Positions 14,458 to 62,229 are shown, counted from the first letter of the stretch. The stretch: DNA of 64,000 nucleotides from Betaproteobacteria bacterium HGW-Betaproteobacteria-12 (GCA_002842345.1 PHCU01000001.1:1-64000), one strand, 5' to 3'. Translations and numbers: made by a program. The notes: generated by a model from the letters alone, not told the origin.

Positions 14458-14585
14458 GGAAACCCCCAATTGGTAATGATACGTACAGTATACATCGATC
14501 CTGTTTTGCTGAAAGTTTCCATTCGCCAGCCGTCTCACTGCGCAAAATCAGGAAACCTTGCCCGCTGCCAGGAACCGCTTGGCAC

Positions 14586-15041: not shown

Positions 15042-15164
15042 GTTTTTCCCCTTTGAATTGTCGGATCAAGCCGGCAGGCCGAGGCCAGCAGCCATAGCAA
15101 CGAGCAGGATCAATGCGCCATGGCCGATCATCCGGCGCTGGAAGCTTGCGATCACCGCTCCCGC

Positions 15165-22650: not shown

Positions 22651-23976
22651 TCAGCGCCCCATGCGGCGCAGGGCATCTGGCTGGAAATCGCTCATCCGCC
22701 CCTGGATGCCGAAACGCCAGGGCTGCTTGTAGCGATTGTCCAGACCGGTGGTCACGTAGGCGCCATTGCTCAGGTCGTGCCAGATTTCCAGGCGGTACCA
22801 GGGGACGCCGGCATCGTAGTACTGCACCAGGGCATGGACGCCGGTGCGCCACAGCATGCCCCGCGAATCGTAGGCATCGCTGAGCAGCACCGACCAGCTG
22901 TCCTCGTCGAGATAAAACACGCGCCGGGCGTAGACATGCGACTGGCCAGGCTTGAGCCGGGCCTCGACGACCCATACCCGGTGCAGTTCGTAACGCATCA
23001 GCTCGGGATTGACGGAACCCTTGTGGATGATCTGCTCGACCTCCAGTTTCTTGTCGCCGATGCGATAGCCGTTGTAGGCGACATACATCTCCTTCTTGCC
23101 GAGCAGGGTCCAGTCGTAGCGGTCGGGTGCTCCGTTGTAGCCGTCGTACTGATCGACGACGGCCAGACCGTCCGAGCCGTTCTGCACATTGTCGTAGGCC
23201 AGGTCGGGGGCGCGCCGGACCCGGCGCTGGCCGGCGTTGTAAATCCAGGCCTTGCGCGACTCGGCAACCTGGTCGACCGGTTCATGCACGAGATAGATGG
23301 TGCCGACGAAATCCGGTGGCGAGGTGAAGTAGCCGAGATAGGAAAACAGCCGGTTCGGCATCGACTCGTCGAAATTGGCGTCGTAGATGCGCCGGTCGTG
23401 AAAGCCGATGCGCATGTAGTCGCCATTGTGGCGCACCGAAAAGGCATCGAACGACCGCTCGACGCCACCGCCGAGGTAACGCAACAGGTGATTCCAGATT
23501 GCCTCCAGACCGTTCTTCGGCTGGGGAAAGGGAATGCTGGAGCCGCCGAGATTCTGCACCGCAGAACCGGCCAGCGTGACCTTGCCGGCCTGCGCCCGGC
23601 TGCGCTCGATGACTTCGTCGGGATAGGCGGCGCTGCGCCGTGTCGGGTACACCGGCAGGCGAAAATCGGGATATTTGGCGAGCAGGGCCTGCAGCCCTGG
23701 CGACAGGCGCTCCCGATACTTCTCGGCATTGGCCGCGGTGATGACGAACAGCGGGACATCGTCCGGGAAGGGATCGACATGCGGCATGCCGGCAGCCCAC
23801 CCTTTCGGGGGAGCAGACAACCCGCCCAGCCAGGGCGGGATCGTCCCTTCGGCATTGCCGGCCCGCTCGCCCCCCACCGGCGTCAGTTCGCCCATCTTGC
23901 CGCCGCCATCCGCAAAGGCGGCTGGCGAGAGCATCAAGGCCCAGCAGAGGAGCAGCGACTGCACCAGGCGGCGCAT
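22651..23976 (-). CDS. DUF1329 periplasmic protein (copy 2)
   Basis: A 441-residue secreted protein with signal peptide (SLLLCWALMLSPAAFA) and the DUF1329 hallmarks: LTPVGGERAGNAEGTIPPWLGGL, GQRRVRRAPDLAYDNVQ, KKEMYVAYNGYRI, and LMRYELHRVWVVEARLKPG. DUF1329 is related to the LolA/LolB lipid-chaperone fold and usually accompanies DUF1302 barrels. It is the last gene of the 30783-to-22651 module, 11 bp after the MMPL transporter gene. Carrying a hydrophobic molecule through the periplasm is inferred. GGGAGG precedes the ATG. Confidence 0.88.
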   Translation of the reverse strand: MRRLVQSLLLCWALMLSPAAFADGGGKMGELTPVGGERAGNAEGTIPPWLGGLSAPPKGWAAGMPHVDPFPDDVPLFVITAANAEKYRERLSPGLQALLAKYPDFRLPVYPTRRSAAYPDEVIERSRAQAGKVTLAGSAVQNLGGSSIPFPQPKNGLEAIWNHLLRYLGGGVERSFDAFSVRHNGDYMRIGFHDRRIYDANFDESMPNRLFSYLGYFTSPPDFVGTIYLVHEPVDQVAESRKAWIYNAGQRRVRRAPDLAYDNVQNGSDGLAVVDQYDGYNGAPDRYDWTLLGKKEMYVAYNGYRIGDKKLEVEQIIHKGSVNPELMRYELHRVWVVEARLKPGQSHVYARRVFYLDEDSWSVLLSDAYDSRGMLWRTGVHALVQYYDAGVPWYRLEIWHDLSNGAYVTTGLDNRYKQPWRFGIQGRMSDFQPDALRRMGR

Positions 23977-23987
23977 GGGTCGCCTCC

Positions 23988-26414: not shown

Positions 26415-26473
26415 AGTCTTGATCCTTCCTGATACTCAGAGCGTAGCCGGACACGAATATCCGCTGTCGCCGT

Positions 26474-27424
26474 TCATTTTTCCTGCATCCGCAGGGTGCC
26501 GGTAGAGAGATAGCCCACGTACAGCACGCCACCGTCCTTGGTCAGGCGGCCGCGCGCCAGGGGCAAGCCTTCCGGCGCCTTGCCCAGGGTGAAGCTCTGG
26601 CCGTGATCCTTGCTGATGGCAATCAGGCCGTTGTTGCCGACGAGCACAACCCGCCCTGTCGGATCGACCCAGCCGCCATTGATGGCACTGGTCGAGGGAA
26701 TGACTACGCTCGTCCAGCTGGCTCCGCCATCCGTCGAACGAAAGATCTTGCCGCGCATGCCGAAAACCAGCAGCGAGCCGTCAGGTGGTGCCACGGCGCC
26801 AAAATACGAACCTTCGTAAGGCGAGGAAAGCTCACTCCATGTAGTCCCTTCATCAGAAGACATGGCCAGGGTTCCTGTTTCGCCGACGAGGAGCAATTTG
26901 TCGCCGAATTCGATGACCTGGGAAATATGGCGGTCGAAGTCCTCACGGATGACCGGCGTCTTCTGCCAGGTCTTGCCCGCATCGGAGGATTCCAGATACA
27001 TACCGAAGGCCCCCCAGGCGATGAGCTTGCCATTCTTGCGGGCCAGCAGGCCGAGGATGGCATCCGTACCGATTTCCGGTACCGGTACCATTTGCCAGGT
27101 CTGTCCGGCATCCTCGCTGCGCATCACTGTCCCGCCATGGCCGACGGCAACCGCCACGCTGGCCGAGTGGAAGGCCACCGAGGTCAGGGTGCGATTCGAC
27201 GGCGTACGCACCGCCGACCAACTTTGCCCTTCGTCGGAAGAATGCATGACAACGCCGCGCTCGCCGACCGCCACCATCTTGCCGCCCGCTTCGACAACAT
27301 CGAACAAGGCCGTCTTCTGCGCCTTGATCTGCAATGCGGTTTTGGCCGGCGTTGCCGCCAGGGAGGGCATGGCGGCGGAGGCAAATGAGATTGCCAGTGC
27401 CCCAAGCAGGGATTTGATCATCAT
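26474..27424 (-). CDS. YCF48/HCF136-like beta-propeller protein
   Basis: A 316-residue exported protein with signal peptide (MMIKSLLGALAISFASAAMPSLAA) followed by repeated BNR-type blades (SSDEGQSW, SEDAGQTW, SSDAGKTW, SSDEGTTW, STDGGASW, SKDHGQSF). This is the photosystem-II-assembly-factor-like fold, here in a non-photosynthetic setting where it accompanies MMPL/DUF1329 genes. It probably acts as a periplasmic scaffold for the transporter. The start at 27424 is chosen for the signal peptide; the track start adds a charged 22-residue extension. Confidence 0.85.
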   Translation of the reverse strand: MMIKSLLGALAISFASAAMPSLAATPAKTALQIKAQKTALFDVVEAGGKMVAVGERGVVMHSSDEGQSWSAVRTPSNRTLTSVAFHSASVAVAVGHGGTVMRSEDAGQTWQMVPVPEIGTDAILGLLARKNGKLIAWGAFGMYLESSDAGKTWQKTPVIREDFDRHISQVIEFGDKLLLVGETGTLAMSSDEGTTWSELSSPYEGSYFGAVAPPDGSLLVFGMRGKIFRSTDGGASWTSVVIPSTSAINGGWVDPTGRVVLVGNNGLIAISKDHGQSFTLGKAPEGLPLARGRLTKDGGVLYVGYLSTGTLRMQEK

Positions 27425-27512
27425 GGACAGTCCGTGTGGAAGAGCGGATGGAAGCAGGAACTGCCTCCATTCTCGCAAAAGCTTATGCATTGGCTGAACG
27501 GGCGTGATTTAG

Positions 27513-27543
27513 CTGATCCCGCGATCTAATACCGCGGGATCAG
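27513..27543 (-). promoter_or_regulatory. Intercistronic 11-bp perfect hairpin
   Basis: CTGATCCCGCG (27513-27523) pairs perfectly with CGCGGGATCAG (27533-27543) around a 9-nt loop. It lies in the gap between DUF1329 copy 1 and the YCF48-like gene. There is no U-run after it on the minus strand, so it may attenuate or protect mRNA rather than fully terminate. Confidence 0.5.
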
Positions 27544-27549
27544 CAGTGA

Positions 27550-28905
27550 TCAGCGCTGACCCCGGCGGCGGATGGCGTCCACCTGGAAATCAGCCTGCTT
27601 GCCCTTCTGGTTCCACTGATAGACCGGCGTCTTCCGTTCGTTGGAGACTGAGGTCACGATGAAGTTGCCGTTGACCAGATCGGTATTGATGAACGGCGCC
27701 TGGAACATCACGCCCGCATCATAGGCCTGGACCAGATGGTAGGCATACGAACGCCACAGGTTGCCACGGCCATCGTAGCCATCGGCCAGGGCAACTGTGT
27801 TGCTGTCCTCGTCGATGTAGAAGGTGCGCTTGGCCAGGACATGGGACATACCCGGCTTCAGCGTGGCCTCCACCACCCAGACCCGGTGCAGCTCATAGCG
27901 CTGCAGCTCCGACTTTACCGAGCCCTTGTCCAGCATATCTGCATACTTCAGCTTCGGATCCTGCAGCTTGTAGGCGTTGTAGGGAATGTAGATTTCCTTC
28001 TTGCCCAGCAGCTTCCAGTCATAACGGTCCTTGGCGCCCTGGAAACCCCAGTAGTCGTCGGTGGTCCGCATGCCTTCAGTGCCATCATCGACGTTGTCGT
28101 AGGCCAGGTCCGGCGCACGACGCACGCGGCGCTGGCCGGCGTTGTAGATGTGGGCGACGCGATTGGCGATGGTGTAGTCGACCGGATCCTTCACCAAGTA
28201 GATGGTACCGACCAGCGTCGCCGGCGCATCGTAGAGACCGAAGAAGGTGAACACGTTGTTCGGTTCACGCGGCTCCATGTTCTGCCCTTGCACCATGTCC
28301 TCGCAGAAGCCGACGCGATAGTAGTCGCCGTTGGCCCGGGTCGGCAGCCAGTCACGGCAGGCCTTGTAGCCGCCGAAGTATTTCGTGGTGTGGTTGTACA
28401 TGGCCTCGGCGCCTGTCTTCGGGTTCGGGAAGGGCACGCCGGGAACGTCGTAGTTCTTGATGCTCAGGCCTTCGAGCTTGGCCTTGCCGGCCTGCGCCTT
28501 GGTCGCATCATAGACAGCCTGCGGGTTGGCGAAGGTGCGGTGTGTCGGGTAGACATTGACGGAGAAGGTCGGAAACTTCTTGATCATCGCCACCGTGCCG
28601 GCGGAGAGCTTGTCCTTGTGCTGCTCGACGTTCTGGGCATTGATGGTGAGGATCGGCTTTTCATCCTTGAACGGATTGATGTAGCCCATTTCCGGCTTCC
28701 AGCCGGCTGGCGGCTGGGTCAGCCCGCCGGTCCAGGCCGGAATGGTGCCCTCCTTATTGCCAGCCTTCTCGGCACCCGACGGGGTCAGATCCTTGCCGAG
28801 ACGATCGAGTTCGGCCGCGGACATTTCCGCAATTGCCGGTGCGATGCCGGCGACCATGAATGCCATCGACGTAGCGGCGGCGAGTAACTTAAATCGTTTG
28901 TTCAT
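27550..28905 (-). CDS. DUF1329 periplasmic protein (copy 1)
   Basis: A 451-residue secreted protein, signal peptide KLLAAATSMAFMVAGIAPAIA, with LTPSGAEKAGNKEGTIPAWTGGL, GQRRVRRAPDLAYDNVDDGTEGM, KKEIYIPYNAYKL, and LQRYELHRVWVVEATLKPGMSH. It is a clear paralogue of the 22651 gene, but immediately downstream of the DUF1302 barrel, as in the common DUF1302-DUF1329 pairing. It is probably a lipid-chaperone-like carrier working with the barrel. The gap to the barrel gene is 24 bp. Confidence 0.9.
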   Translation of the reverse strand: MNKRFKLLAAATSMAFMVAGIAPAIAEMSAAELDRLGKDLTPSGAEKAGNKEGTIPAWTGGLTQPPAGWKPEMGYINPFKDEKPILTINAQNVEQHKDKLSAGTVAMIKKFPTFSVNVYPTHRTFANPQAVYDATKAQAGKAKLEGLSIKNYDVPGVPFPNPKTGAEAMYNHTTKYFGGYKACRDWLPTRANGDYYRVGFCEDMVQGQNMEPREPNNVFTFFGLYDAPATLVGTIYLVKDPVDYTIANRVAHIYNAGQRRVRRAPDLAYDNVDDGTEGMRTTDDYWGFQGAKDRYDWKLLGKKEIYIPYNAYKLQDPKLKYADMLDKGSVKSELQRYELHRVWVVEATLKPGMSHVLAKRTFYIDEDSNTVALADGYDGRGNLWRSYAYHLVQAYDAGVMFQAPFINTDLVNGNFIVTSVSNERKTPVYQWNQKGKQADFQVDAIRRRGQR

Positions 28906-28929
28906 GTTTGTCTCCTTTATGGTGTTGTG

Positions 28930-30783
28930 TCAGAACGCGGCATTCAGGGTCACGTAATAGAAGCCACGGTCGCGCAGCGGATCGTATTTGGCATCCTTAT
29001 TGAAGAAGGTTGCCCCGACGTCCACCGTATATTTCTTCTGGTAGCTGAATTTCGCGCCCAGGCCGAGCGCCATGCGGTCCTCGAGGAACTGGCTGTCGGC
29101 CGAGTTGCCCTTGACGTCATGCGACCAGAAAACGCTCGGGGTCACCGAAACACCGGAGAACACGTCGTTGTAGGTCACATCCAGCTTGGCCCGGTAACCC
29201 CAGGCGAAGTTGGTCACGTAACCATCCGTATCGCAGCCTGCCGCAGTAGTGTTCAGGCCCGAGGTGCAGGTATTGCCGCCGTAGCGTGCATCGCTGCCGG
29301 GTCCGAAGATGAAGGCACGGTTGTAGCGCAAGTCATTGGCACCGCCGATAGACAGGTTGTTCCACTGAAAACCGGCTTCGGCGATAAAGATGAACTGATC
29401 ACCACCGAGCAACCTGTTGCCGGCCTTGACGGCATTGACCTGCAACTGGTGAATGTTGGCGCGCTCATAACCCGGCAGGTAGCCATTGCCGCCATTAAGG
29501 CCTGCCGAGCTGACGGCACCGTTACCGTAGGGGCCGAACGGAATGGAAACCCCCGGAGCAATGGCCCCGGCTGCACCCAGACCTGAGAGGAGAAGATCGT
29601 TGCCGTCAATTTGCACCGCCACATCGCGGCGGGTGCTCACCTCACCGGCAACGGACCAGCCCAGAATATTGGTCGATGCACTCACACCAAAGGCCTTGAT
29701 CGCCTCCGGATATTCCCACATCACATCGAACGGCATGCCATTTTGTGCCCTGCCATTGGCCAGATTGACGATCGAGACATTGGGGGTACGCGCGTGGTAA
29801 CGCATGCCGTAGATGCCGAACTCGGTATCCAGCGCATCGACGTTAAAGCGGTAGGCCAGACCGAATTGCCCGGAGTTACTCGGATCCTTGGCATCGATGG
29901 TATGAACGTAGGCGCCCAGCGGCGTGGCGACGTTCTGGCTTTGCCCGGGAACCAGGGTGATGGCGTTGTCGCAGGCGCCCGGATCGCGAGAAATATTGCC
30001 GACCGCGACGGACCAGTAACTGCCACAACCCAGATCGAGCGGCGAGTTTTCATACTTGAGCTGGTAGAAGAACTCCAGGCTGCCGGCGTCGCCCAGGCTC
30101 TGGTTGGCGTAGGCAATCGGCACCGGCAGGAAGACTTCCTTCAACTGCGCGCCCGGTTTGTGGAAGGACGGGACGTCGATCGGGTTGATCTGGTTCAGGC
30201 CCTGGACGAAGAGGCTCTCGCCCCAGTTCACCACCTGGTTGCCAAGACGGACCTGCAACGGCTTGCCGGCAATATCCCAGGTGTTATAGACATAGGCATC
30301 GAGGAGTGCGACGCCATCGTAGCGGGAGAGATTCTCAAAACCGCGGTCGGACAGCGGGGCGTTGCGGTAACCGTTGTTCTGGTTGCCATAATGTACGTCC
30401 TGGTGATTCAGGGTGTAGTCATACCAGGCCTTGGCACGGATCAGCGCCCCCATGCTCCCCTTCTGCACCTGGAGTTCGGTGAACCACTTGACCTGGGTGG
30501 TGAACTGATCGCCCTTCTTGTAGTTCACATTGCCTTCATCGACGGTATTCGGCGCCCGACCACCCGACAAACCGGCATGGGCGCCGCTGGCAGCTGAATA
30601 AAGATCCTTGTCCGGATTATTGGCGCGCCAGGCAGTACCCAGCGAAACCGAGTTTTGCCAACTCCCTGTCCAACCATCGCCAAACTCGAAATCCACCGCA
30701 TTTGCCTGGCCAGAAAAGGCCGCGGCCAATGCGGCAGCGACGCCACTGACCACCAGCCCCGTGCTACGTTTTTGAATATTCAT
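28930..30783 (-). CDS. DUF1302 outer-membrane beta-barrel protein
   Basis: A 617-residue protein with signal peptide (VVSGVAAALAAAFSGQANA) and mature start VDFEFGDGWTGSWQNSVSLGTAWR, a DUF1302 signature. Many amphipathic beta strands and a terminal aromatic residue (FYYVTLNAAF) indicate an outer-membrane barrel. The ATG at 30783 follows AGAGGAGAC; the track start adds 31 non-signal residues. It is the first gene of the envelope module, with the operator 78 bp upstream. A porin role for a hydrophobic catabolic substrate is inferred. Confidence 0.88.
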   Translation of the reverse strand: MNIQKRSTGLVVSGVAAALAAAFSGQANAVDFEFGDGWTGSWQNSVSLGTAWRANNPDKDLYSAASGAHAGLSGGRAPNTVDEGNVNYKKGDQFTTQVKWFTELQVQKGSMGALIRAKAWYDYTLNHQDVHYGNQNNGYRNAPLSDRGFENLSRYDGVALLDAYVYNTWDIAGKPLQVRLGNQVVNWGESLFVQGLNQINPIDVPSFHKPGAQLKEVFLPVPIAYANQSLGDAGSLEFFYQLKYENSPLDLGCGSYWSVAVGNISRDPGACDNAITLVPGQSQNVATPLGAYVHTIDAKDPSNSGQFGLAYRFNVDALDTEFGIYGMRYHARTPNVSIVNLANGRAQNGMPFDVMWEYPEAIKAFGVSASTNILGWSVAGEVSTRRDVAVQIDGNDLLLSGLGAAGAIAPGVSIPFGPYGNGAVSSAGLNGGNGYLPGYERANIHQLQVNAVKAGNRLLGGDQFIFIAEAGFQWNNLSIGGANDLRYNRAFIFGPGSDARYGGNTCTSGLNTTAAGCDTDGYVTNFAWGYRAKLDVTYNDVFSGVSVTPSVFWSHDVKGNSADSQFLEDRMALGLGAKFSYQKKYTVDVGATFFNKDAKYDPLRDRGFYYVTLNAAF

Positions 30784-30947: not shown

Positions 30948-32114
30948 TCAATATGACTTGGGCAGATCGAGCACCTTCTCGGCGATAAAGCACATGATCA
31001 GTTGTTCGGTGATCGGCGCCAGGCGGGTCACGGTGACTTCGCGCAGCAGGCGTTCGACGTGGTATTCCTTGGCATAGCCGAACCCGCCGTGGGTCATCAC
31101 CGCCTGTAGCGCCGAGTCGTAGCCGGCCCGAGCACCGAGGAACTTGGCCGTATTGGCTTCCGCACCGCAAGGCTTGTCGTTGTCGTACAGCCAGGCGGCC
31201 TTCATCGCCATCAGCCAGGCGGCTTCTAGCGCCATCCAGCGTTCGGCCAGCGGATGCTGGATACCCTGGTTCTGGCCGATGGGCCTGTCGAAAACGGTCC
31301 GTTCCTTGGCATAGCGGGTCGCGCGGCGCAGGGCGTCCTGGCCGATGCCGATGGCTTCCACGGCGATCAGGATGCGCTCCGGGTTGAGGCTGTGCAGGAC
31401 ATACTTGAAGCCCTTGCCTTCCTCACCGACACGGTCGGACTCGGGAATGAACAGGTCATCGATGAAAATGGCGTTGGAGTCGACGGCCTTGCGTCCCATT
31501 TTCGGGATCTTCTTGACCTCGATCTTCGAACGATCCAGGTCGGTATAGAAAATGGTGATGCCGTCGGTCGGGCGCGCGCAATCCTCAAGCTTGGTCGTCC
31601 GGGTCAGCAACATGATCTTGTTGGCAACCTGGGCGGTCGAGGTCCAGACTTTCTGCCCACGTACGATGTAGCCGCCGGGAACACGCTCGGCAAAGGTCTT
31701 GATGGCGGTGGTGTTGAGGCCGGCATCCGGCTCGGTAAAGCCGAAGCAGCACTGGTCCTCGCCGCTGATCAGGCGCGGAATCCAGCGCTGCTTCTGCTCC
31801 GGCGTACCGAAGACAACGATCGGGTGCGGCCCGAACAGGTTGATGTGCACCGTCGAGGTAGCGGCCATGCCGCCGCCATGCGAAGCCACCTCGTGCATCA
31901 TCACCGCCGCCTCGGTCACCCCGAGGCCGGCGCCGCCATACTCGACCGGCATGGTGATGCCGAGCCAGCCGGCATCCGCCATGGCGCGATGGAACTCGCG
32001 GGGAAACTCCCCGTCTTCGTCGCGCTGCAGCCAGTAGTCGTCGCCAAAACTGCGCATGACTGCCGCCACGCCGTCGCGAATGGCTTCATGATCCGAATTG
32101 CTAGAAAAATCCAT
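30948..32114 (-). CDS. Acyl-CoA dehydrogenase
   Basis: A 388-residue flavoenzyme: MDFSSNSDHEAIRDGVAAVMRSF start, CCFGFTEPDAGLNTTAIKTFAER, VRGQKVWTSTAQVANKI, RTVFDRPIGQNQGIQHPLAERWM, THGGFGYAKEYHVERLLREVTVTRLAPITEQLI. The PITEQ segment replaces the more usual GTxE, a variation seen in the FadE-like group close to the CaiA/short-branched class. It is third in the MaoC, CitE, dehydrogenase unit and is a candidate for a branched or dicarboxylic acyl-CoA. Confidence 0.9.
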   Translation of the reverse strand: MDFSSNSDHEAIRDGVAAVMRSFGDDYWLQRDEDGEFPREFHRAMADAGWLGITMPVEYGGAGLGVTEAAVMMHEVASHGGGMAATSTVHINLFGPHPIVVFGTPEQKQRWIPRLISGEDQCCFGFTEPDAGLNTTAIKTFAERVPGGYIVRGQKVWTSTAQVANKIMLLTRTTKLEDCARPTDGITIFYTDLDRSKIEVKKIPKMGRKAVDSNAIFIDDLFIPESDRVGEEGKGFKYVLHSLNPERILIAVEAIGIGQDALRRATRYAKERTVFDRPIGQNQGIQHPLAERWMALEAAWLMAMKAAWLYDNDKPCGAEANTAKFLGARAGYDSALQAVMTHGGFGYAKEYHVERLLREVTVTRLAPITEQLIMCFIAEKVLDLPKSY

Positions 32115-32157
32115 GGTCTCTATTCCCTGCTTAGGTTTTGTCTGGGGCCACCAGCAC

Positions 32158-33033
32158 TCATGAAAGGCCGGCCTGGGCCAGGGTTTTCATCGCCTGCACC
32201 AGATGCGGACGGTCGTACATTTTTCCGTTGAGCCCCACCACGCCGGTTCCCGGCGCCTCGGCGAAGGCGGCGACGATTGCACGCGCGACGCCGATATCCT
32301 CTTCGCTCGGGGTGTAACAGCGATTGATGACATCGACCTGGTCGGGATGGATGGCAATGCGCCCGAGAAAGCCGCGCCGCCGGGACAGCAGGCAATCGCG
32401 CTCGAGGCCGGCGGCATCGCGGAAATCGCCGTACAGCGTATCGACCGCCTGGGCCTCGGCCGCGGCCGCGGCATACAGCGCACCGGAGCGCGCCTGCACG
32501 TAGGCGGCCGACAGTTCGCCGTCTTCCTCGCGGTTGCTGATCGAGCCGAGCGCCGCCGCCAGATCCTCGGCGCCCCAGGTTATCCCCACCAGGCGCGGTG
32601 GCTTGCTGGCATAGCTGTGCAGATTAAGCATGCCGGCGGCCGTTTCGGTGGCCACGACAACCACCTTGATCGACTGCGGCGACAGACCTGCCCGCACTTC
32701 CAGAACATCCAGGTAGTGGCTCAGGCGAAGCACGTCGGCGGCACCATCGGCCTTCGGCAGGACGATGCCGTCGAGGCCCTCGCCGACCACCTGCGCCAGA
32801 TCCGGCAAGGCATCGGCGGTGCTCAGCGGGTTGATCCGGACGAAGCCCTTCCAGCTCCGCTGCCCGCAGGTCGCCGCCAGATGCTCGGCGGCCATCCGGC
32901 GCGCCAGCGGACGACGGCTTTCGGCCACCGAGTCTTCAAGATCGAGGATCAGCGCATCGGCTGACGAGGCGACGGATTTCTGCAGCTTCTTCTCGCTGTC
33001 CGCCGGCACGAAAAGCATCGAACGTAGCTTCAT
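32158..33033 (-). CDS. CitE-like beta-hydroxyacyl-CoA lyase (HpcH/HpaI family)
   Basis: A 291-residue TIM-barrel lyase: RSMLFVPADSEKKLQKS, DALILDLEDSV (acidic metal/substrate site), RINPLSTADALPDL, GIVLPKADG, ATETAAGMLNLH, LVGITWGAEDLAAALG, GRIAIHPDQVDVIN. These are all hallmarks of malyl/citramalyl-CoA lyases and stand-alone CitE proteins, which split 3-hydroxyacyl-CoA diacid thioesters, for example to acetyl-CoA plus a 2-oxoacid. The ATG at 33033 overlaps the upstream MaoC stop (ATGA), so translation is coupled. Together with that MaoC it resembles the RipB-RipC pair of itaconate degradation. Confidence 0.85.
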   Translation of the reverse strand: MKLRSMLFVPADSEKKLQKSVASSADALILDLEDSVAESRRPLARRMAAEHLAATCGQRSWKGFVRINPLSTADALPDLAQVVGEGLDGIVLPKADGAADVLRLSHYLDVLEVRAGLSPQSIKVVVVATETAAGMLNLHSYASKPPRLVGITWGAEDLAAALGSISNREEDGELSAAYVQARSGALYAAAAAEAQAVDTLYGDFRDAAGLERDCLLSRRRGFLGRIAIHPDQVDVINRCYTPSEEDIGVARAIVAAFAEAPGTGVVGLNGKMYDRPHLVQAMKTLAQAGLS

Positions 33034-33494
33034 GCCAGCGGCTTCCGCAGCATCAGCGCCTGACGAACACAGATGCACACCACTTCGTTGTGCTGGTTGA
33101 GCCCCTGGTGCCGGAAAGTGACAATCCCCTGCTCCGGGCGCGAGCGACTGTCGCGCTTGTCGACGACGGTCGTCACCGAGCGGATCGTGTCGCCGGCGAA
33201 CACCGGCTTGGGAAACAGCACTTCGCTCATGCCCAGATTCGCCACCGTCGTCCCCAGGGTCGTATCCTGAACCGTCAGCCCGATGACCAAACCAAGCGTG
33301 AAGATGCTGTTGAACAACGGACGACCGAACTCGGTCTGCTTGCAGTACTCCGCATCGATATGAATTTGCGCGGGGTTGTAGGTAGCGCCGCAGAACCAGA
33401 TGTTCTCCGCCTCAACCAGCGTGCGCCGGATCTCGTGCTCGAAGACTTGCCCTGCTTCCAACTGATCGTAAAATTTGCCAGCCATGCTTTGCAT
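33030..33494 (-). CDS. MaoC-family hydratase (itaconyl/mesaconyl-CoA hydratase-like)
   Basis: A 154-residue MaoC protein with ATYNPAQIHIDAEYCKQTEFGRPLFNSIFTLGLV and TVANLGMSEVLFPKPVFAGDTIRSVTTV. NPxxIHxDxxY and FPKPVFxGDT are typical of MaoC hydratases paired with CitE lyases. Those act on itaconyl-, mesaconyl- or related enoyl-CoA diacids. It is the first gene of its unit, with an operator-covered promoter 33 bp upstream, and its stop overlaps the CitE start. Confidence 0.87.
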   Translation of the reverse strand: MQSMAGKFYDQLEAGQVFEHEIRRTLVEAENIWFCGATYNPAQIHIDAEYCKQTEFGRPLFNSIFTLGLVIGLTVQDTTLGTTVANLGMSEVLFPKPVFAGDTIRSVTTVVDKRDSRSRPEQGIVTFRHQGLNQHNEVVCICVRQALMLRKPLA

Positions 33495-33526
33495 CCCGTA
33501 GTTGTCAAAAACAATCCGCTTGTTGA

Positions 33527-33554
33527 TTGTATGCTAGCAAACCGAATTGTTAAT
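33527..33554 (-). promoter_or_regulatory. Promoter overlapped by 14-bp operator, site 3
   Basis: Operator GTATGCTAGCAAAC at 33530-33543. The minus strand reads TTAACA (33549-33554), 16-bp spacer, TACAAT (33527-33532), so the operator fills the spacer and part of the -10. It lies 33 bp before the MaoC start. Confidence 0.65.
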
Positions 33555-33661
33555 TGCAACCGCTGCAACGATAATTAACAAACCGACCGTTCCGTCTGTT
33601 TCTGATAGTAAACACTCGGCTCGCGCCCTGTCAATCGTGCTGCGGATTTTTCCTTGCCAGC

Positions 33662-34822
33662 TCAGCGCAGGATCCGGCCCTGGCTGTTCAGGATAGTGAT
33701 ATCGACGAACTGCGACCCTTGCCGAACGCCGGGCCGGTAAGCGACAAAGTAGCCGCCCAGATCGATCGGCGCCTGTTCCAGGGCCGTCACCAGATCGTCG
33801 GGCGCCGGATTCGCCCCTGAACGACGCAGCGCTTCGATGGTGATCCGCGCCGCAATGTAGCCCTCCAGACCGTAGTACGAAGGCTGCGCCTCGGGATTGA
33901 GCGCCTTTATCGCGCGCAGGTAGTCACCGGTAACCTTGACCGTGTCGTTCCACGGATAGGGCGTGACCTGGGAAATGATGACGCCCTTGGCCGCAGCGGC
34001 ACCGAGTTCAGCGACAAGGAGATCGGCGCCGACCAGGGAGACAGTGGCAAACTGCATTGCCGCATTGATCTTCTTCAGGGCGCGGATGGCTGCGGCGGCA
34101 GGCTTGTGCGTGGCGAGCACCAGCACGAGTTGCGGTGCCGCATCGGCAACCTGTTTGATGATGTCGGGCGTAACGCCCTTGGCCGGATCGAAGCCGACGC
34201 TCGCCACCGCTGAAAGCCGGTGCCGCTTCATGGCCTCGACAAATCCGTCCAGCCCGGCCCGACCAAACGAATCGTCCTGATAGACGACCCCGATCTTCGT
34301 CACCGCCAGCGGCACCGCGTGGTCGATGATGACCGCCACCTCCTTCTCCACCGAGGCGCGGGTACTGAAGGCGTAGCGCCCCGGTTGCAGATGAAGGGAA
34401 CTGGTGCCGGTAGACAGGCCGATCAGGGGGATGCCGGCCGTGCGGAGCGCTTGCATCGCCTCGACGGTACCGGGCGAACCGAAGAATCCGACCAGCGAGA
34501 GGACTTTCTCCTCATTGATCAGCCGGCGCGTATTGGCCAGCATGCGCTCGGTTTCGTAGCCATCGTCGAGGCTGACGACTTCGATTTTTCGGCCATGGAT
34601 ACCGCCTTCGGCATTGACCCGGGCAAAGCAGGCCAGGGCGCCTTCGCGCAAGGCCTTGCCGTAGGCCGCCACCGGCCCGCTCAACGGCAAGGACATACCC
34701 AGCCGGATCGCTGCGCTCCCGTCGCTGCCCGGCGCGGCATTGGCCCGCTCGGGATAGCTGCCGAGACCAATCGTCATCGCGACGAAAACGACGAACACCA
34801 GCTCACCCACCAATCTTCTCAT
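33662..34822 (-). CDS. ABC-transporter substrate-binding protein (LivK-like)
   Basis: A 386-residue periplasmic binding protein of the branched-chain amino-acid family: signal segment (LVFVVFVAMTIGLGSYPERANA), IRLGMSLPLSGPVAAYGKALREGALACFARVNAEGGIHGRKIEVVSLDDGYE, and later VGVVYQDDSFGRAGLDGF. LivK-like proteins in catabolic clusters often bind aromatic or aliphatic acids. No permease or ATPase genes are adjacent, so it either uses a system encoded elsewhere or serves as a sensor. It is last in the unit starting with the OYE gene at 39966. Confidence 0.88.
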   Translation of the reverse strand: MRRLVGELVFVVFVAMTIGLGSYPERANAAPGSDGSAAIRLGMSLPLSGPVAAYGKALREGALACFARVNAEGGIHGRKIEVVSLDDGYETERMLANTRRLINEEKVLSLVGFFGSPGTVEAMQALRTAGIPLIGLSTGTSSLHLQPGRYAFSTRASVEKEVAVIIDHAVPLAVTKIGVVYQDDSFGRAGLDGFVEAMKRHRLSAVASVGFDPAKGVTPDIIKQVADAAPQLVLVLATHKPAAAAIRALKKINAAMQFATVSLVGADLLVAELGAAAAKGVIISQVTPYPWNDTVKVTGDYLRAIKALNPEAQPSYYGLEGYIAARITIEALRRSGANPAPDDLVTALEQAPIDLGGYFVAYRPGVRQGSQFVDITILNSQGRILR

Positions 34823-34905
34823 TTTGACTCTCGTTGTTTACCCCGACCCTGGCCGGCCCGGAGCTTGTCCTGAGCGGGCCGCAAGCAGCCTTTCGTCAAC
34901 CGCTT

Positions 34906-36159
34906 TTACAGGCCGGCCGCGATGCCCGCCCACTCGGCAGCAAGCCCTTCCCGGAACGGCGGGTCAGCCAGTTCGATCAGCTTCTCGGCACGCTGGTGCA
35001 ACGACAGTTTCGCCAGCTCGGCGCTGCCGTGCTCGGTGACCACGCGATCGAGCATGTAACGCGCCGCCCCGACCGCGCTGCCGGTGCCGAGTCGGGGAAC
35101 AATGCGGCTGATCGTCCCCTTGCCGGCCGTTGACGACAGGCAGAAGATTGCCCGCCCGCCGGGCGCCAGCCGCGCCCCGGTAACGAAGGGCGGCATGCCG
35201 CCGACGCCGGCGAGCAGCCGACCATCGAGGCAATCGCAATTGACCTGGCCGAAAAGATCGATCTCGACGGCGGCATTGATCGAAACGAAATTCGGAATCC
35301 GCGCGATGCTGCAGATATCGTGGGTTTCCCCGACGCTGCGGAAGGCGAAGGCATCGTCTTCGGCCAGTCGCCGATAGAAGCTTTCGTCGCCAAGCGCCAC
35401 GCCGGCGACGATCGAGCCGACACCCTGAATCGCCCCGGATTCGCGCAGGCCGAGAATCTCTTCGGTCACCATGCCGGAATGCAGGCGCAACTGGCGATGC
35501 TCGCGCAAGGAACGAACCACTGCACTCTGCATCTTGCCGATCCCCAGTTGCAGGGTATCGCCATCACGGACCATGGCGGCGACGTGGCGGCCGATGGCCA
35601 GCAGTTCCGGCCCCGGATCACCGCTCAGTTGCGTCACCAGCGGCGCGTCGATCTCACAGACGACATCGCAGTCGGCACGCGCGATGCTGAAGCTGCTTTG
35701 GGTACGCGGCATGCGCGGATTGACATGGGCCACGCGGATGGCCGCCCGCGCCCAGACTGCCGGCAGAAAGTCATGACAGACCCCGAGGCTCATTCGCCCC
35801 GCGGCATCCGGTGGACTGACCTGGGCCAGCGCCAGATCGATAGGCAAGGACTGCAGGTCCTGCCACACCCCGGTGTAATCGAGGGGTAGCAGGTCCACGC
35901 GCCCCTGGCGCATCGGCTCCCGCAAATTGGGCTGAATGAAGTAGGCGCGTTGCCGAGCCTGCGGATGCAGGCCGGGATAATCGCCGAAATTGATGCCGGG
36001 AAAATGCACGCCGACGAAGCGTACCCCGGCCGCCTTGTCGGGATGGCGACAGAGGGCCTCGAAAAAAGCCAGCGATTCGCCGGAAGTGCCGGGGATGAAG
36101 ACATTCATCCCCGGCCGCAGCATGGCGACAACCTGATCCAGGCACGCTTGCTTGTTCAT
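34906..36159 (-). CDS. CoA-transferase of the acetyl-CoA hydrolase/4-hydroxybutyrate CoA-transferase family
   Basis: A 417-residue class-I-type CoA transferase (Cat1/4HB-CoA transferase family): start MLRPGMNVFIPGTSGES, LPLDYTGVW, QLGIGKMQSAVVRSLREHRQLRLHSGMVTEEIL, and the active-site region containing SVGETHDICSIARIPNFVSINAAVEIDLFGQVN with the catalytic Glu. In itaconate degraders the RipA protein belongs to this family. Here the matching MaoC and CitE genes are just downstream in the next unit, so activation of a dicarboxylic acid by CoA transfer is the leading guess. Acetyl-CoA hydrolase activity is the alternative. Confidence 0.82.
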   Translation of the reverse strand: MNKQACLDQVVAMLRPGMNVFIPGTSGESLAFFEALCRHPDKAAGVRFVGVHFPGINFGDYPGLHPQARQRAYFIQPNLREPMRQGRVDLLPLDYTGVWQDLQSLPIDLALAQVSPPDAAGRMSLGVCHDFLPAVWARAAIRVAHVNPRMPRTQSSFSIARADCDVVCEIDAPLVTQLSGDPGPELLAIGRHVAAMVRDGDTLQLGIGKMQSAVVRSLREHRQLRLHSGMVTEEILGLRESGAIQGVGSIVAGVALGDESFYRRLAEDDAFAFRSVGETHDICSIARIPNFVSINAAVEIDLFGQVNCDCLDGRLLAGVGGMPPFVTGARLAPGGRAIFCLSSTAGKGTISRIVPRLGTGSAVGAARYMLDRVVTEHGSAELAKLSLHQRAEKLIELADPPFREGLAAEWAGIAAGL

Positions 36160-36198
36160 TCGGCAGATCTCCGTGGCATCGCTAGCTGATTCCGTGCC

Positions 36199-37401
36199 TC
36201 AGGCGCCGAGGCGGCCGATGATGGAGATGGCGCAGACATTCTGGTGCGGATGGCCGCCCAGATTCTGCGTCAGCCCGAGGTCGGCCTTGGCCAGCTGGCG
36301 TTCGCCGGCCCGGCCGAGCAACTGGAGGTAAACCTCGTAGACCATGCGCAGCCCCGAAGCGCCGATCGGATGGCCGAAGCACTTGAGCCCGCCGTCGATC
36401 TGGCAGGGAATGGCCCCGTCACGGTCGTAGCGGCCTTCGAGAATGTCGTAGGCGGCGCGGCCGGGACGGCTCAACTGCAGGCCCTCCATCAGCACCAGCT
36501 CGGTGATCGAAAAGCAGTCGTGCACTTCGATCAGGTCCAGCGCTGCCGTCGGGTCGGCAATGCCGGCTTCCTGGTAGGCACGGGCAGCGGCGACCTCGGC
36601 GGTACGGATCGAGGCACCGTCCCAGGTGCTGAACTGCGCCTCTTCGCCGTTGGACACCGACAACTGCAGCGACTTCACGGTGATCACATCCTTCTTGCCG
36701 AGCTTTTTGGCGATTTCCGGCGTCGTCACGATGGCGCAAGCCGCCCCGTCGCTGACCCCGGAGCAATCGAAGAGGCCGAGCGGCTCGGCGATGATCTTCG
36801 CCTTGAGCACGTCTTCCTCGGTGATCCGGTTACGCAGATGCGCCTTGGGATTCAGTACGGCGTTGTCGTGGCTTTTGACCGAGACGTGCGCCATCGCCCG
36901 TTTCAACTCCTCGGGCGGGATCCCGTACTTGCTCTGGTAAGCCGTTGCCAGCTGGGCAAAGGCGCCGGGGGCCGAACCGTTGGGCAGCCACAGGTCGGTG
37001 ACCGTGCCGCGGGTGCGGTGCGGCAGGCCGCCATAGCCGGTGTCCTTGAGCTTTTCGACGCCGAGGGCGAGCACGATGTCGTAAGCGCCGGAGGCGACTG
37101 CATAGACGGCGCCGCGCAAGGCCTCGGTCCCCGTCGCACAGGCATTCTCGACCCGGGTCACGGCGATGTTCTGCAGGCGCAGGGCCTGGGCCAGCGGCCC
37201 CGCCGTCTTGCCGACGTTGTTTTCTTCGAGGCAGACGCCCAGCCAGGCCGCTTCGATCTGCTTGCGCTCGATGCCGGCATCGGCGATGGCCTCGGTAAAG
37301 GCCTCGAGCATCAGATCCTCGGCATTGTCCGACCAGCGCTCGCCAAACTTCGAGCAGCCCATACCTACGATCGCGACGCGATCACGAATTCCGCTAGCCA
37401 T
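36199..37401 (-). CDS. SCP-x-type thiolase (lipid-transfer thiolase family)
   Basis: A 400-residue thiolase-superfamily protein with catalytic Cys88 in VENACATGTEAL, HDCFSITELVLMEG (His), and GGLKCFGHPIGASGLR. This non-degradative SCP-x/Ltp class needs an OB-fold (DUF35) partner in several characterised systems (archaeal acetoacetyl-CoA thiolase; steroid side-chain aldolase). The partner domain is fused to the HMG-CoA-synthase-like gene immediately upstream: this ATG (37401) is one base away from that gene's last codon. The reaction is probably C-C cleavage of a branched or tertiary 3-oxo/3-hydroxyacyl-CoA. Confidence 0.88.
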   Translation of the reverse strand: MASGIRDRVAIVGMGCSKFGERWSDNAEDLMLEAFTEAIADAGIERKQIEAAWLGVCLEENNVGKTAGPLAQALRLQNIAVTRVENACATGTEALRGAVYAVASGAYDIVLALGVEKLKDTGYGGLPHRTRGTVTDLWLPNGSAPGAFAQLATAYQSKYGIPPEELKRAMAHVSVKSHDNAVLNPKAHLRNRITEEDVLKAKIIAEPLGLFDCSGVSDGAACAIVTTPEIAKKLGKKDVITVKSLQLSVSNGEEAQFSTWDGASIRTAEVAAARAYQEAGIADPTAALDLIEVHDCFSITELVLMEGLQLSRPGRAAYDILEGRYDRDGAIPCQIDGGLKCFGHPIGASGLRMVYEVYLQLLGRAGERQLAKADLGLTQNLGGHPHQNVCAISIIGRLGA

Positions 37402-37402
37402 T

Positions 37403-38854
37403 TCAGTTTTCCTTGTCCTGGGGCAGTACGGTCGCTTTCCAGAAGTACCGTTTGAAGCCCCGCTGAGAGTCCGCATCCTTGATCCGGAAGACCATGCGCA
37501 ACGGCACGCCGACCGCCAGTTCGTCCGGTTCGCAATCGGTGAATTCCATCATTACCCGCGCCCCGCTGGCGAATTCGACATGGCCGAAAAGGAAGGGCGG
37601 ACAGGGTTTGTACGACAGCCAGTCGCAGGTAAAGGAGCGCACCTTGGCCGCTTCGTCGAGCAGCACATGCGACTGCTGCGTATCGACGGCCGTGCATTCC
37701 GGGTTGACGCAGACCCGCGATTTCGGGAACTGCACCGTGCCGCAGGCCGAGCACTTGCCGCCGGCGAAGCGATTGACCATCTCCTCGCCGCGCCAGGCGG
37801 CGGAAAGCGCCGTCTTGTTATCCATTTCGGCGCGCATGCCCCACTCGAGCGCCAGCTGGTTGGTGAAGGAGAGATACTTGAAGTAGTTGCTTTCGACCCG
37901 GCCCGGCGTCAGCCACGGCGCCGGCGTTGCGGCCCGGCCCTGCCCGACCGTTTCCAGGACGATGACGTCGCAGCCGCTGCCGAACTGGACGAGCACGATC
38001 TTGCGCCCGGCCGGCGCGCTTTCCAGTTCGCGGGCCAGCATCAGCAGCGGATGGGCGGCGCCGGTATCGCCACAGGTTTCGAACAGCGTGTCGGCAACCG
38101 CCTCCGGCCGGATGCCGGCCTTCTTCGCCACCACCTGATTGACCTTCATCAGTGCTGCCGGCATCAGGAAGGCGTCGACCTGATCGGCCTGCAGCCCGGC
38201 TTCGGCGAGCGCGCGGCGAATCACCGGCGGCACCAGCTTCAGGAAGCCCTCTTCGCGGACCCAACGCTCTTCCCAGCCGTAATCGCCGTCACGCCCGGAG
38301 GCCCGGAAGTGATCGACAAAATCGATGGTTTCGCTGGCCGAGCCGCGCAGCACGGCAAGCGGCTCCCCGTGACCGACGGCGATGGCTGCCGCGCCATCAC
38401 CGGCCAGCAGTTCGCCAGTACTGGCCGGCGTCGGGATGCGGCGCTCGCTGGCGACGATCAGCGACGTCGCCCCGCTATCGCCACGCAGGGCGCGCAGCAG
38501 TGCGCTCGAGCCACAACGCAGGCTGCCAGCGGCATCCATGGACGACAGCTGCGCGTCCAGGCCAAGGGCGGCGGCGAGCACCGAAGCATTGAGCCGGTCG
38601 GCGAAGGGCAGCGTCGTCGAGGCCAGGGTCAGGTTGCCGACGCTGCCGACCGGGAAGCGACCGAGCACGCTGCGCCCGGCCTCGACCGCCATGGTCAGGA
38701 CATCCTCGTCCCAGTTGATCATCGACCGCGTGCCCTTGGCATTAGATTTCAGGCCCGGGGCCATCCAGCGGTGGGCCGCCGCAACGGCCGCCCGATCCAG
38801 GCGCAGGCGGGGCAGATAGCCCCCGACGCCAATGATTCCAAATCCTTGTTCCAT
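37403..38854 (-). CDS. HMG-CoA-synthase-like protein fused to OB-fold/zinc-ribbon (DUF35) domain
   Basis: A 483-residue fusion. Residues 1 to about 340 have the thiolase fold of archaeal-type HMG-CoA synthase (GIIGVGGYLPRLRLDRAAV). Cys114 (SLRCGSSALL) is kept, but the synthase Glu position (SES in archaeal enzymes) reads S-T-T (Thr80) and the FHQP His position reads F-L-M-P. Residues about 360-483 form a DUF35 domain with zinc ribbon CSAC...CVNPEC (Cys368, 371, 382, 387). Start at 38854. Ordinary HMG-CoA synthesis is doubtful. A structural or lyase partner of the neighbouring SCP-x thiolase is more likely. Confidence 0.8.
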   Translation of the reverse strand: MEQGFGIIGVGGYLPRLRLDRAAVAAAHRWMAPGLKSNAKGTRSMINWDEDVLTMAVEAGRSVLGRFPVGSVGNLTLASTTLPFADRLNASVLAAALGLDAQLSSMDAAGSLRCGSSALLRALRGDSGATSLIVASERRIPTPASTGELLAGDGAAAIAVGHGEPLAVLRGSASETIDFVDHFRASGRDGDYGWEERWVREEGFLKLVPPVIRRALAEAGLQADQVDAFLMPAALMKVNQVVAKKAGIRPEAVADTLFETCGDTGAAHPLLMLARELESAPAGRKIVLVQFGSGCDVIVLETVGQGRAATPAPWLTPGRVESNYFKYLSFTNQLALEWGMRAEMDNKTALSAAWRGEEMVNRFAGGKCSACGTVQFPKSRVCVNPECTAVDTQQSHVLLDEAAKVRSFTCDWLSYKPCPPFLFGHVEFASGARVMMEFTDCEPDELAVGVPLRMVFRIKDADSQRGFKRYFWKATVLPQDKEN

Positions 38855-38862
38855 ATATGTAG

Positions 38863-39966
38863 TCACTTCCCTAACGAAACGGATGGCCCCGACCAGTACT
38901 GCGGACTGCACAGCATGTACTGACTGGGGAAAGGCAGGTTGACGCCGAGCTGCCGGGCCGCCTTCAAGGCCCAGCGCGGGTCGTAGAGCATGGCGCGACC
39001 GATGGCCACGCCGTCGACATGGCCGGCGGCGACAGCTGCCTCGGCCATAACCGGGTCATCGAGCAAGCCGACAACCCGGGTAAGCAGACCGGTCTGCGCC
39101 CTGACTTGAGCGGCAAACTCGACGAGATATCCCGGTGCCGCCGGAATCCTGACCCCTTCGGCAATGGCACCGGCCGAGATGCAGACGAAATCAACGCCGG
39201 CGGCTTTCAGTGCCGCGCAGACAGCCAGCGTGTCGGCGAACTCGAGGCCGCCCTCATGCCAGTCGCGGCAATTTAGACGCACGCCCAGCGGCTTGTTCTC
39301 CGGCCAGGCAGCCCGCACCCGGGCGACGACTTCGAGCGGGAAACGCATCCGCTTGGCCAGCGAGCCGCCGAATTCATCGCTGCGCCGGTTGCTGACCGGC
39401 GACAGGAAGCTGTGCAGCAGATAGCCATGCGCCATGTGCAACTCAACATAGTCGAGGCCGGCGTGCCCCGCCCGCCGGGCGGCACTGGCGAAGGCCGCGG
39501 CAATGCGTTCCATGCCGGCGGTGTCGAGTTCCTGCGGCATTGCGCGGTTCTTGCCGAAAGCGATCGGCGACGGCCCGACGATATCCCAGCCGCCCGCATC
39601 ACTCGCCAGACCTTCGCCGCCGCGCCACGGCTCGTGACAGGAAGCCTTGCGGCCGCCGTGATTGAGTTGCAGACCGATCCTGATCGGACTCAGTCGCCGC
39701 AGATAGCCGACCATTACCGCCAAGGCCACCGTCTGCTCGTCGTCATACAGCCCCAGGCAACCGCGGGTGATACGCCCTTCCGGCAGGACTGCCGTCGACT
39801 CGATGGTGATCGCCCCGGCACCGCCGATCGCCAGCGCACCGAGATGCTGCCAGTGCCAATCACCGACCTTGCCGTCCACGCCGCTGTACTGGCACATCGG
39901 CGCGACGAAGACGCGATTGCTCAAATGCATTGACTTGATCTGCAGGGGAGAAAACAGCGTGCTCAT
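38863..39966 (-). CDS. NADH:flavin oxidoreductase (YqjM/OYE family)
   Basis: A 367-residue ene-reductase beginning STLFSPLQIKSMHLSNRVFVAPMCQYS, the YqjM-class Cys-containing FMN site. The substrate segment is DYVELHMAHGYLLHSFLSPVSNRRSDEFGGSLAKRMRFPLEV. The class includes 2,4-dienoyl-CoA reductase-like and cyclic-enone reductases. It is the first gene of the OYE, HMGS-like, thiolase, CoA-transferase, binding-protein unit, downstream of a strong promoter with operator site 4. It plausibly reduces a ring C=C before cleavage. Confidence 0.9.
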   Translation of the reverse strand: MSTLFSPLQIKSMHLSNRVFVAPMCQYSGVDGKVGDWHWQHLGALAIGGAGAITIESTAVLPEGRITRGCLGLYDDEQTVALAVMVGYLRRLSPIRIGLQLNHGGRKASCHEPWRGGEGLASDAGGWDIVGPSPIAFGKNRAMPQELDTAGMERIAAAFASAARRAGHAGLDYVELHMAHGYLLHSFLSPVSNRRSDEFGGSLAKRMRFPLEVVARVRAAWPENKPLGVRLNCRDWHEGGLEFADTLAVCAALKAAGVDFVCISAGAIAEGVRIPAAPGYLVEFAAQVRAQTGLLTRVVGLLDDPVMAEAAVAAGHVDGVAIGRAMLYDPRWALKAARQLGVNLPFPSQYMLCSPQYWSGPSVSLGK

Positions 39967-40207: not shown

Positions 40208-41137
40208 ATGAGCACACAAGGCAAATCGCAACTTCTCGCCGGCAAGGTCGCCCTGGTGACCGGCGCCGGTCGCGGCGTCGGTCGCGGCATCGCGCTGGAA
40301 CTGGCAGCCGCCGGTGCCCGGGTCGTCGTCAACGACGTCGGCACCTCGCCGACTGGCGAAGGCAGCGATCTCTCGCCGGCCAATGAGGTGGTCGCCGAAA
40401 TCCGGCGCAATGGCGGCGAGGCGGTGGCCGACTCGAACTCGGTCGCCGACTGGGATCAGGCCCATGCGATGGTGCAGAAGGCGATCGATGCCTTCGGCCG
40501 CATCGATATCGTCATCAACAACGCCGGCATCCTGCGCGACACGATCTTCCATCGCATGACCAAGGAAGACTTCGACTCCGTCATCAACGTCAATCTGGCC
40601 GGCGTCTTCTATGTCAGCCGGGCCGCGGCACCGCACTTCAAGGCCCAGAACAGCGGCTGCTTCGTGCATATCACCTCGAGTTCGGGACTGGTCGGCAATT
40701 TCGGGCAGGCCAACTACTGCGCCGCCAAGCTCGGCGTCGTCGCCTTGTCCAAGGCCATCGCCATGGACATGCAGCGCTTCAACATCCGATCCAACGCCGT
40801 CGCTCCCTGGGCCTGGACCCGCATGGTGAGCACCATCCCGGCCGAGACCGAGGCCGAGAAAAAGCGTGTCGAAGGCCTGCAGAAACTGGTCCCGGAAAAA
40901 ATCGCCCCGTTCATCGCCGCCCTCGCCAGCGACCAGGCCGCCGAGGTCAACGGCCAGGTATTCGGCGTGCGCAATAACGAGATCTACCTGTTCTCGCAGT
41001 CCCGCCCGATCCGCACCGCCCACACCGCCGATGGCTGGACGCCGGAAACGGTCATCGAACGGGTCTTCCCGATGTTCAAGAACGATTTCTATCCCCTGCA
41101 TCGCTCCGGCGATGTGTTCACCTGGGATCCGGTATAA
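40208..41137 (+). CDS. SDR of the HSD17B4 / multifunctional-enzyme-2 type
   Basis: A 309-residue SDR: KVALVTGAGRGVGRGIALELAAAGARVVVNDVG, NNAGILRDTIFHRMTKEDFDSVINVNLAGVF, and SSSGLVGNFGQANYCAAKLG with catalytic Ser, Tyr and Lys. The RGVGR/NNAGILRD pattern is that of the D-3-hydroxyacyl-CoA dehydrogenase domain of MFE-2/HSD17B4. It oxidises (3R)-hydroxyacyl-CoA, matching the R-specific MaoC hydratases in the window. GAGGAAG precedes the ATG. First gene of the plus-strand unit ending with FadL. Confidence 0.9.
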   Translation: MSTQGKSQLLAGKVALVTGAGRGVGRGIALELAAAGARVVVNDVGTSPTGEGSDLSPANEVVAEIRRNGGEAVADSNSVADWDQAHAMVQKAIDAFGRIDIVINNAGILRDTIFHRMTKEDFDSVINVNLAGVFYVSRAAAPHFKAQNSGCFVHITSSSGLVGNFGQANYCAAKLGVVALSKAIAMDMQRFNIRSNAVAPWAWTRMVSTIPAETEAEKKRVEGLQKLVPEKIAPFIAALASDQAAEVNGQVFGVRNNEIYLFSQSRPIRTAHTADGWTPETVIERVFPMFKNDFYPLHRSGDVFTWDPV

Positions 41138-61964: not shown

Positions 61965-62144
61965 ATGAGCACAACCCCCTACCGCAAGTGGCAATGCCTG
62001 GCCTGTGGCGACATCTACGACGAGGCCCTGGGCAGTCCGCCGGACGGCATCCCGGCCGGCACCCGCTTCGAGGCGTTGCCGGATGACTGGCTGTGTCCCA
62101 ACTGCGGCGCCCTGAAGGCCTCCTTCGTACCGATGGATGACTGA
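61965..62144 (+). CDS. Rubredoxin (AlkG-type)
   Basis: A 59-residue rubredoxin, too short for the track. CLACG (Cys11, Cys14) and LCPNCG (Cys44, Cys47) bind one iron, with FEALPDDW between, as in alkane-hydroxylase rubredoxins. AGAGGAAAT precedes the ATG. It is 13 bp after the P450 gene and 85 bp before the reductase. A rubredoxin beside a P450 that also has its own [2Fe-2S] ferredoxin is unusual. It could be an alternative electron carrier or serve a separate hydroxylase. Confidence 0.92.
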   Translation: MSTTPYRKWQCLACGDIYDEALGSPPDGIPAGTRFEALPDDWLCPNCGALKASFVPMDD

Positions 62145-62229
62145 CCGCCAGGCGACGACGGCACGAGCGACAGCCTTTTCGCCAGCCCGCACCGTCATCG
62201 CCAATCTACCCCCCGGAGAACAACACCCC

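Follow-up and report, generated by a model that had tools for sequence, protein, structure and literature searches.

A gene pair in the genome of Betaproteobacteria bacterium HGW-Betaproteobacteria-12 raises the question of which of two adjoining proteins does the chemistry: a fusion of an HMG-CoA-synthase-like domain to a DUF35 module, or the thiolase encoded beside it. The original prediction, made on the window (the whole 64,000-nucleotide stretch analysed, PHCU01000001.1:1-64000), held that the fusion keeps a nucleophile and may be a new C-C lyase for branched or tertiary-alcohol acyl-CoAs. Here, we set out a reading to which we give a probability of about 0.7, namely that the two genes encode one enzyme in which the thiolase does the chemistry and the fusion serves as its scaffold and pocket partner, thiolysing a branched beta-ketoacyl-CoA in monoterpene breakdown.

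A conserved two-gene unit

Both genes are present where they were first placed, on the minus strand (a detail previously left unstated), with 1 base between them:

37403..38854, minus strand: HMG-CoA-synthase-like/DUF35 fusion protein, 483 aa (open reading frame, Pfam, predicted fold)
37949..38854, minus strand: pseudo-HMG-CoA-synthase domain of the fusion, aa 1-302, as judged from the best folds and from scores below cut-off in HMG-CoA synthase models
37676..37765, minus strand: DUF35 zinc ribbon, about aa 364-393 (Pfam zf-ChsH2)
37427..37675, minus strand: DUF35 OB-fold, about aa 394-476 (Pfam OB_ChsH2_C; predicted strands)
36199..37401, minus strand: SCP2-type/archaeal-type thiolase of the PRK06157 family, 400 aa (658 bits; best fold 6esq_A)

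The fusion matches ACP_syn_III_C, zf-ChsH2 and OB_ChsH2_C above the Pfam cut-offs, and these domains agree with the predicted fold in bearing out the early description of an HMG-CoA-synthase fold joined to an OB-fold/zinc-ribbon. All three modules of the thiolase/HMG-CoA-synthase-like/DUF35 multicomponent systems are encoded together. The candidate ligands of its Cys4 zinc ribbon (C368, C371, C382 and C387) are all invariant in 45 sequences. The genome holds one copy, a search of it for a second fusion having found none, and no paper on the fusion as such was found in the open-access literature, a search that leaves most subscription journals outside.

Among 86 loci retrieved by means of the fusion itself, which are mutually related and hence not independent observations, the thiolase stands beside the fusion in 80, almost without exception immediately downstream and on the same strand; the other six are loci in which the match to the fusion is close to where the contig ends. 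A thiolase above the PRK06157 cut-off occurs in eight of 150 genomes sampled from the family, which are precisely the eight that have the fusion (G068 with a fragment only, at a contig start), and in seven of 299 sampled from the phylum, again the same seven that carry the fusion. The chance of such identical presence would be about 2e-13 and 3e-14, respectively, if genomes were independent, which they are not, and the figures are therefore indications only. Two genomes (G296 and G433) have both genes though unlinked, and more distant fusion/thiolase pairs are found in Rhodococcus, Mycobacterium and haloarchaea. This co-occurrence supports the view that fusion and thiolase form a stable physical complex.

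A synthase half that has lost its catalytic residues

Residues were mapped by hhalign of a 103-sequence profile (the fusion and its relatives) against the archaeal HMG-CoA synthase, 6ESQ chain I, and against the genome's own FabH:

38615..38617, minus strand: Thr80, at the position of general-base Glu82 of archaeal HMG-CoA synthase (Thr in 101 of 103)
38519..38521, minus strand: Leu112, at the nucleophile Cys position in both alignments (Cys in 0 of 103)
38513..38515, minus strand: Cys114, off the nucleophile position and unconserved (Cys in 6 of 103 relatives)
38159..38161, minus strand: Pro232, in place of the catalytic His (90 of 103 sequences have Pro, one has His)

In the profile alignment, E82, C114 and H238 of 6ESQ fall on T80, L112 and P232 of the fusion, and the nucleophile Cys of FabH likewise falls on Leu112, a position occupied across the 103 sequences by Gln, Leu, Ala and a few other residues. 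The first account of this active site was right about the general-base Glu, where SES has become STT, and about the loss of the His, although the gapless alignment sets the latter on P232 and not on L230 of the FLMP motif; its retained nucleophile does not hold. Cys114, considered as a surviving nucleophile, lies two residues past Leu112 and is ruled out by the profile alignment and by family conservation, and the number 114 that it shares with the 6ESQ cysteine is a coincidence. An intact Glu-Cys-His triad was also looked for elsewhere in the fusion protein and none was found, as the original prediction required.

Because Glu, Cys and His are all lost family-wide, the synthase half is best regarded, on these alignments, as a pseudo-synthase so far as known chemistry goes. 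The fusion scores under both HMG-CoA synthase cut-offs (TIGR00748, 124 versus 244 bits; PRK04262, 75 versus 353 bits), and the genome contains no match above cut-off to a true HMG-CoA synthase. The half is clearly constrained, with further invariant residues in the 45-sequence set in addition to WEERW(I/V)R(D/E)EG; by analogy this conservation may reflect interfaces or CoA binding, and it could mirror catalysis instead of scaffolding. The motif itself (aa 194-203; 38246-38275, minus strand) is diagnostic of the family, stands where archaeal HMG-CoA synthase has HGGRFTGEPAY, and is possibly an interface.

A thiolase that keeps its own

The neighbouring protein shows Thiolase_N/Thiolase_C_1 in Pfam, passes the curated PRK06157 cut-off (NF004810; 658 versus 403 bits) and has the HDCF motif and nucleophile Cys of an SCP2-type thiolase, its catalytic residues being present in all of 93 sequences:

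37138..37140, minus strand: nucleophile Cys88 (93 of 93)
36511..36522, minus strand: HDCF motif, aa 294-297 (93 of 93)
36370..36372, minus strand: His344 of the GHP motif (93 of 93)

Its earlier description as an SCP-x thiolase stands for the SCP2-type thiolase part only, as the C-terminal SCP2 domain of SCP-x is absent from this protein of 400 aa, in which Pfam shows thiolase-superfamily domains only.

Predicted folds and their multicomponent relatives

AlphaFold predictions were made for single chains, from an input alignment without the rows that apparently came from annotated plasmid records. The fusion model (pLDDT 88, pTM 0.90) has the HMG-CoA synthase fold in its synthase half, which is closest to 6et9_I and 6esq_I (Z 41; for 6et9_I, Z 41.5 and rmsd 2.1 over 329 residues), followed by PhlA (Z 40-41) and MucABC (Z 39), so that the predicted structure is best matched, among solved ones, by synthase-like subunits from three-component systems. 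Confidence is lower for the thiolase model (pLDDT 81, with loop 121-139 below 50), whose best fold, 6esq_A (Z 51), is the thiolase subunit of the archaeal complex; as a group, 6esq_A, 7yvy_A and SCP2-thiolase score Z 49-51.

The archaeal thiolase/HMG-CoA-synthase/DUF35 complex thus has the same three modules and provides the top fold for the fusion (Z 41) and for the thiolase (Z 51), but here the synthase half is fused to DUF35 and has no counterparts of Glu82, Cys114 and His238, and the context is catabolic where that of the archaeal complex is the mevalonate pathway. The proposal that the locus is a bacterial, catabolic relative of this complex, in which a single polypeptide combines the synthase half with DUF35, is upheld, the closest predicted folds being subunits of the archaeal complex and of PhlABC. 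In PhlABC (PDB 5M3K, 9SKH), an HMG-synthase-like subunit without the key Cys and Glu (PhlA) and a DUF35 subunit accompany a thiolase-like subunit with Cys88 (PhlC), which alone is catalytic, and the working enzyme needs all three (PMC6392133). By analogy, this makes PhlABC the closest working model for the fusion/thiolase pair, from which it differs in that A and B are here one polypeptide, that its partner is a thiolase with the canonical HDCF motif and that the setting is acyl-CoA catabolism in place of phloroglucinol acylation. Benzoylsuccinyl-CoA thiolase BbsAB (PDB 7PXP; fold Z 49) likewise combines a thiolase with a DUF35 partner in acyl-CoA catabolism, but has no HMG-synthase-like part.

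The monoterpene setting of the locus

The locus is part of an island for monoterpene degradation. In Castellaniella defragrans DSM 12141 (locus L040), a 1023-base DUF7064 gene is followed by the fusion, thiolase, CoA-transferase and ETF genes, an order that matches CDM25297 to CDM25301 in the monoterpene island of strain 65Phen, a correspondence drawn from gene order and from an exact match to the CDM25297 length rather than from accession sequences. CDM25298 and CDM25299 are apparent orthologues of our pair, judged from where the genes beside them lie in DSM 12141 and how large these are (fusion 64% and thiolase 86% identical), but are annotated as 'hypothetical protein' and 'acetyl-CoA acetyltransferase' without an assigned role, and the published work concerns 65Phen. 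There, both proteins were seen only in alpha-phellandrene-grown cells, a CoA-transferase lies downstream as it does here, and cells with an insertion in CDM25297 could grow on neither limonene nor myrcene (PMC4109377). A polar effect of this insertion is possible, because in DSM 12141 that gene extends into the beginning of the one for the fusion. In the window, 19746-20690 (minus strand) encodes a DUF7064/DUF7065 protein with the same domains as the Castellaniella gene of CDM25297 length (L040:6956-7978).

Another contig of the genome, C209, carries an mrcE orthologue 90% identical to the copy in Azoarcus KH32C, with relatives of mrcD, mrcF, mrcG and mrcH beside it; positions 31450-36400 of this contig (locus L136) form an apparent monoterpene ring-cleavage cluster, with apparent alcohol and aldehyde dehydrogenases nearby. 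A cytochrome P450 in the window (60668-61951, plus strand), followed by a ferredoxin-reductase-like protein (62137-63459, plus strand), has as its best solved relative P450terp, the alpha-terpineol hydroxylase (E 1.6e-114), which points to growth on terpineol or some related monoterpene. Near the pair, a BadI-like ring hydrolase is found in 26 of 80 loci.

Genes around the pair include the following:

38863..39966, minus strand: NADH:flavin oxidoreductase of the OYE family, immediately upstream of the gene for the fusion (Pfam)
40208..41137, plus strand: SDR dehydrogenase, a probable 3-hydroxyacyl-CoA dehydrogenase (83% identity with the copy in Azoarcus KH32C; relatives neighbour the pair in 39 of 86 loci)
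34906..36159, minus strand: CoA-transferase of the acetyl-CoA hydrolase/transferase family (Pfam AcetylCoA_hyd_C; a neighbour of the pair in 22 of 86 loci)
33030..33494, minus strand: MaoC-type hydratase, RipB-like, below cut-off (Pfam and family-model scores)
32158..33033, minus strand: CitE/RipC-like C-C lyase, below cut-off (Pfam and family-model scores)
30948..32114, minus strand: acyl-CoA dehydrogenase (Pfam)

The MaoC and CitE-like proteins both fail the RipB and RipC cut-offs (132 versus 340 and 155 versus 375 bits), and their genes are found near the pair in only six of 86 loci. On a plasmid of Sphingobium sp. TomTYG64 (L140, 8908-14063), fusion, thiolase, MaoC, a CitE-like CoA ester lyase and acyl-CoA dehydrogenase genes run consecutively. 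A bona fide HMG-CoA lyase is encoded on another contig of the genome.

Further from the pair, a row of DUF1329, MMPL transporter, YCF48-like, DUF1329 and DUF1302 genes (window 22651-30783, minus strand) suggests the export or uptake of hydrophobic compounds, and Azoarcus sp. KH32C has a similar set close to its own pair (L031). An acetoacetyl-CoA-synthetase-like gene (15152-17155 and 14548-15567, minus strand), in which similarity to the Azoarcus KH32C protein ends at 86% of its length, looks frameshifted near 15446, as a pseudogene or through an assembly error.

A proposed mechanism and its alternatives

In the limonene pathway, ring cleavage and one round of beta-oxidation lead to a glutaryl-CoA with an isopropenyl branch at C3, and the step at the tertiary carbon was assigned to LrcC, an HMG-synthase-superfamily protein encoded next to the thiolase LrcD in the ring-cleavage operon (PMC12583861). 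By the logic of the pathway, cleavage at the branched carbon requires hydration to a tertiary alcohol and then a retro-aldol step. LrcC/LrcD and our pair are alike in placing such a protein beside a thiolase in a terpene setting, a homology read from the published description and gene order, and the need for this step, together with the conservation of the synthase half, would favour a fusion that itself performs the lyase reaction as proposed for LrcC. We nevertheless think this unlikely, given the loss of all three HMG-CoA synthase catalytic residues, the occurrence of the pair far beyond terpene degradation and the presence nearby of a MaoC/CitE-like pair that could perform the step. An HMG-CoA synthase run in reverse would, moreover, have to make a thioester from a free carboxylate without ATP. 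It is very unlikely that the synthase half has been re-purposed, with T80, S79, the WEERW motif and R184, which the family conserves, making up a new active site for cleaving tertiary 3-hydroxy-3-alkylglutaryl-CoAs and passing the product straight to the thiolase. The new C-C lyase first placed in the synthase half is thus probably not there, its Glu, Cys and His being gone while the thiolase residues are all kept and no aldolase Tyr is found; what survives of that idea is a plausible link to tertiary-alcohol acyl-CoAs at the level of the pathway, through the monoterpene island, for which the MaoC and CitE-like proteins are the better candidates.

The other readings give the chemistry to the thiolase but change its kind. 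Ltp2-ChsH2 and Sal-Shy are retro-aldolases that also combine a thiolase-fold protein with a DUF35 partner, and the pair could on that pattern act on a 3-hydroxyacyl-CoA and not a 3-ketoacyl-CoA; neither system has an HMG-synthase-like part, and the thiolase model matches the folds of Ltp2 and Sal (Z 43.4 and 42.6) at scores below those for the thiolases listed above. The aldolases carry the Tyr of YDHF/YDCY at the position of thiolase His294, and CtSal has Gly in place of the Cys of SCP2-thiolases (PMC12329534); our protein has no such Tyr, His294 of HDCF and Cys88 being kept in 93 of 93 sequences, which leaves this reading quite unlikely. Least probable of all is a CoA-independent, PhlABC-like acyltransferase working between non-CoA substrates: the synthase half does resemble PhlA in sequence (best E-values) as in fold, but for the thiolase PhlC gives a much weaker match (E 1e-23 to 1e-19) than 7yvy, 6esq_A and SCP2-thiolases do (E 1e-59 to 1e-41), and the genes that surround the pair are those of acyl-CoA beta-oxidation.

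We therefore return to a thiolase served by the fusion. In this enzyme, Cys88 would take the acyl group, Cys296 of HDCF and His344 would act as acid/base, and CoA would release the product; the fusion, without synthase chemistry, would hold the complex together and complete the CoA/acyl-CoA pocket, as PhlA and PhlB do for PhlC. Pathway logic would make the likeliest substrates 4-methyl-3-oxopent-4-enoyl-CoA, cleaved to methacrylyl-CoA and acetyl-CoA, or, earlier in the pathway, 3-oxo-5-isopropenylpimeloyl-CoA. The MaoC and CitE-like proteins would carry out the retro-aldol cleavage of the tertiary alcohol 3-hydroxy-3-isopropenylglutaryl-CoA, and the CoA-transferase would re-activate the keto acid for the thiolase. 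We infer the complex, its activity and substrates, and the roles of these three neighbours. In the itaconate pathway, a RipB/RipC-type pair forms and then cleaves a tertiary alcohol acyl-CoA, and we give the lyase step to the MaoC/CitE-like proteins because of this precedent, because the fusion is without catalytic residues and because the RipB/RipC-like pair lies a few genes downstream; the genome's HMG-CoA lyase is a second candidate. Since the pair is found in many settings without MaoC/CitE genes, a general thiolase fits it better than a dedicated tertiary-alcohol lyase.

Implications

A widespread protein that carries generic database names would gain a role, as the obligate non-catalytic partner of a thiolase, and would probably illustrate how an enzyme can be demoted to a scaffold. 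The reading speaks against the published view that LrcC, an HMG-synthase-superfamily enzyme, carries out tertiary-carbon cleavage in limonene breakdown, and offers the MaoC and CitE-like proteins as testable candidates for that step. It would also mean that the thiolase/HMG-synthase-like/DUF35 architecture reaches into bacterial terpene and alicyclic catabolism, with two of its parts fused.
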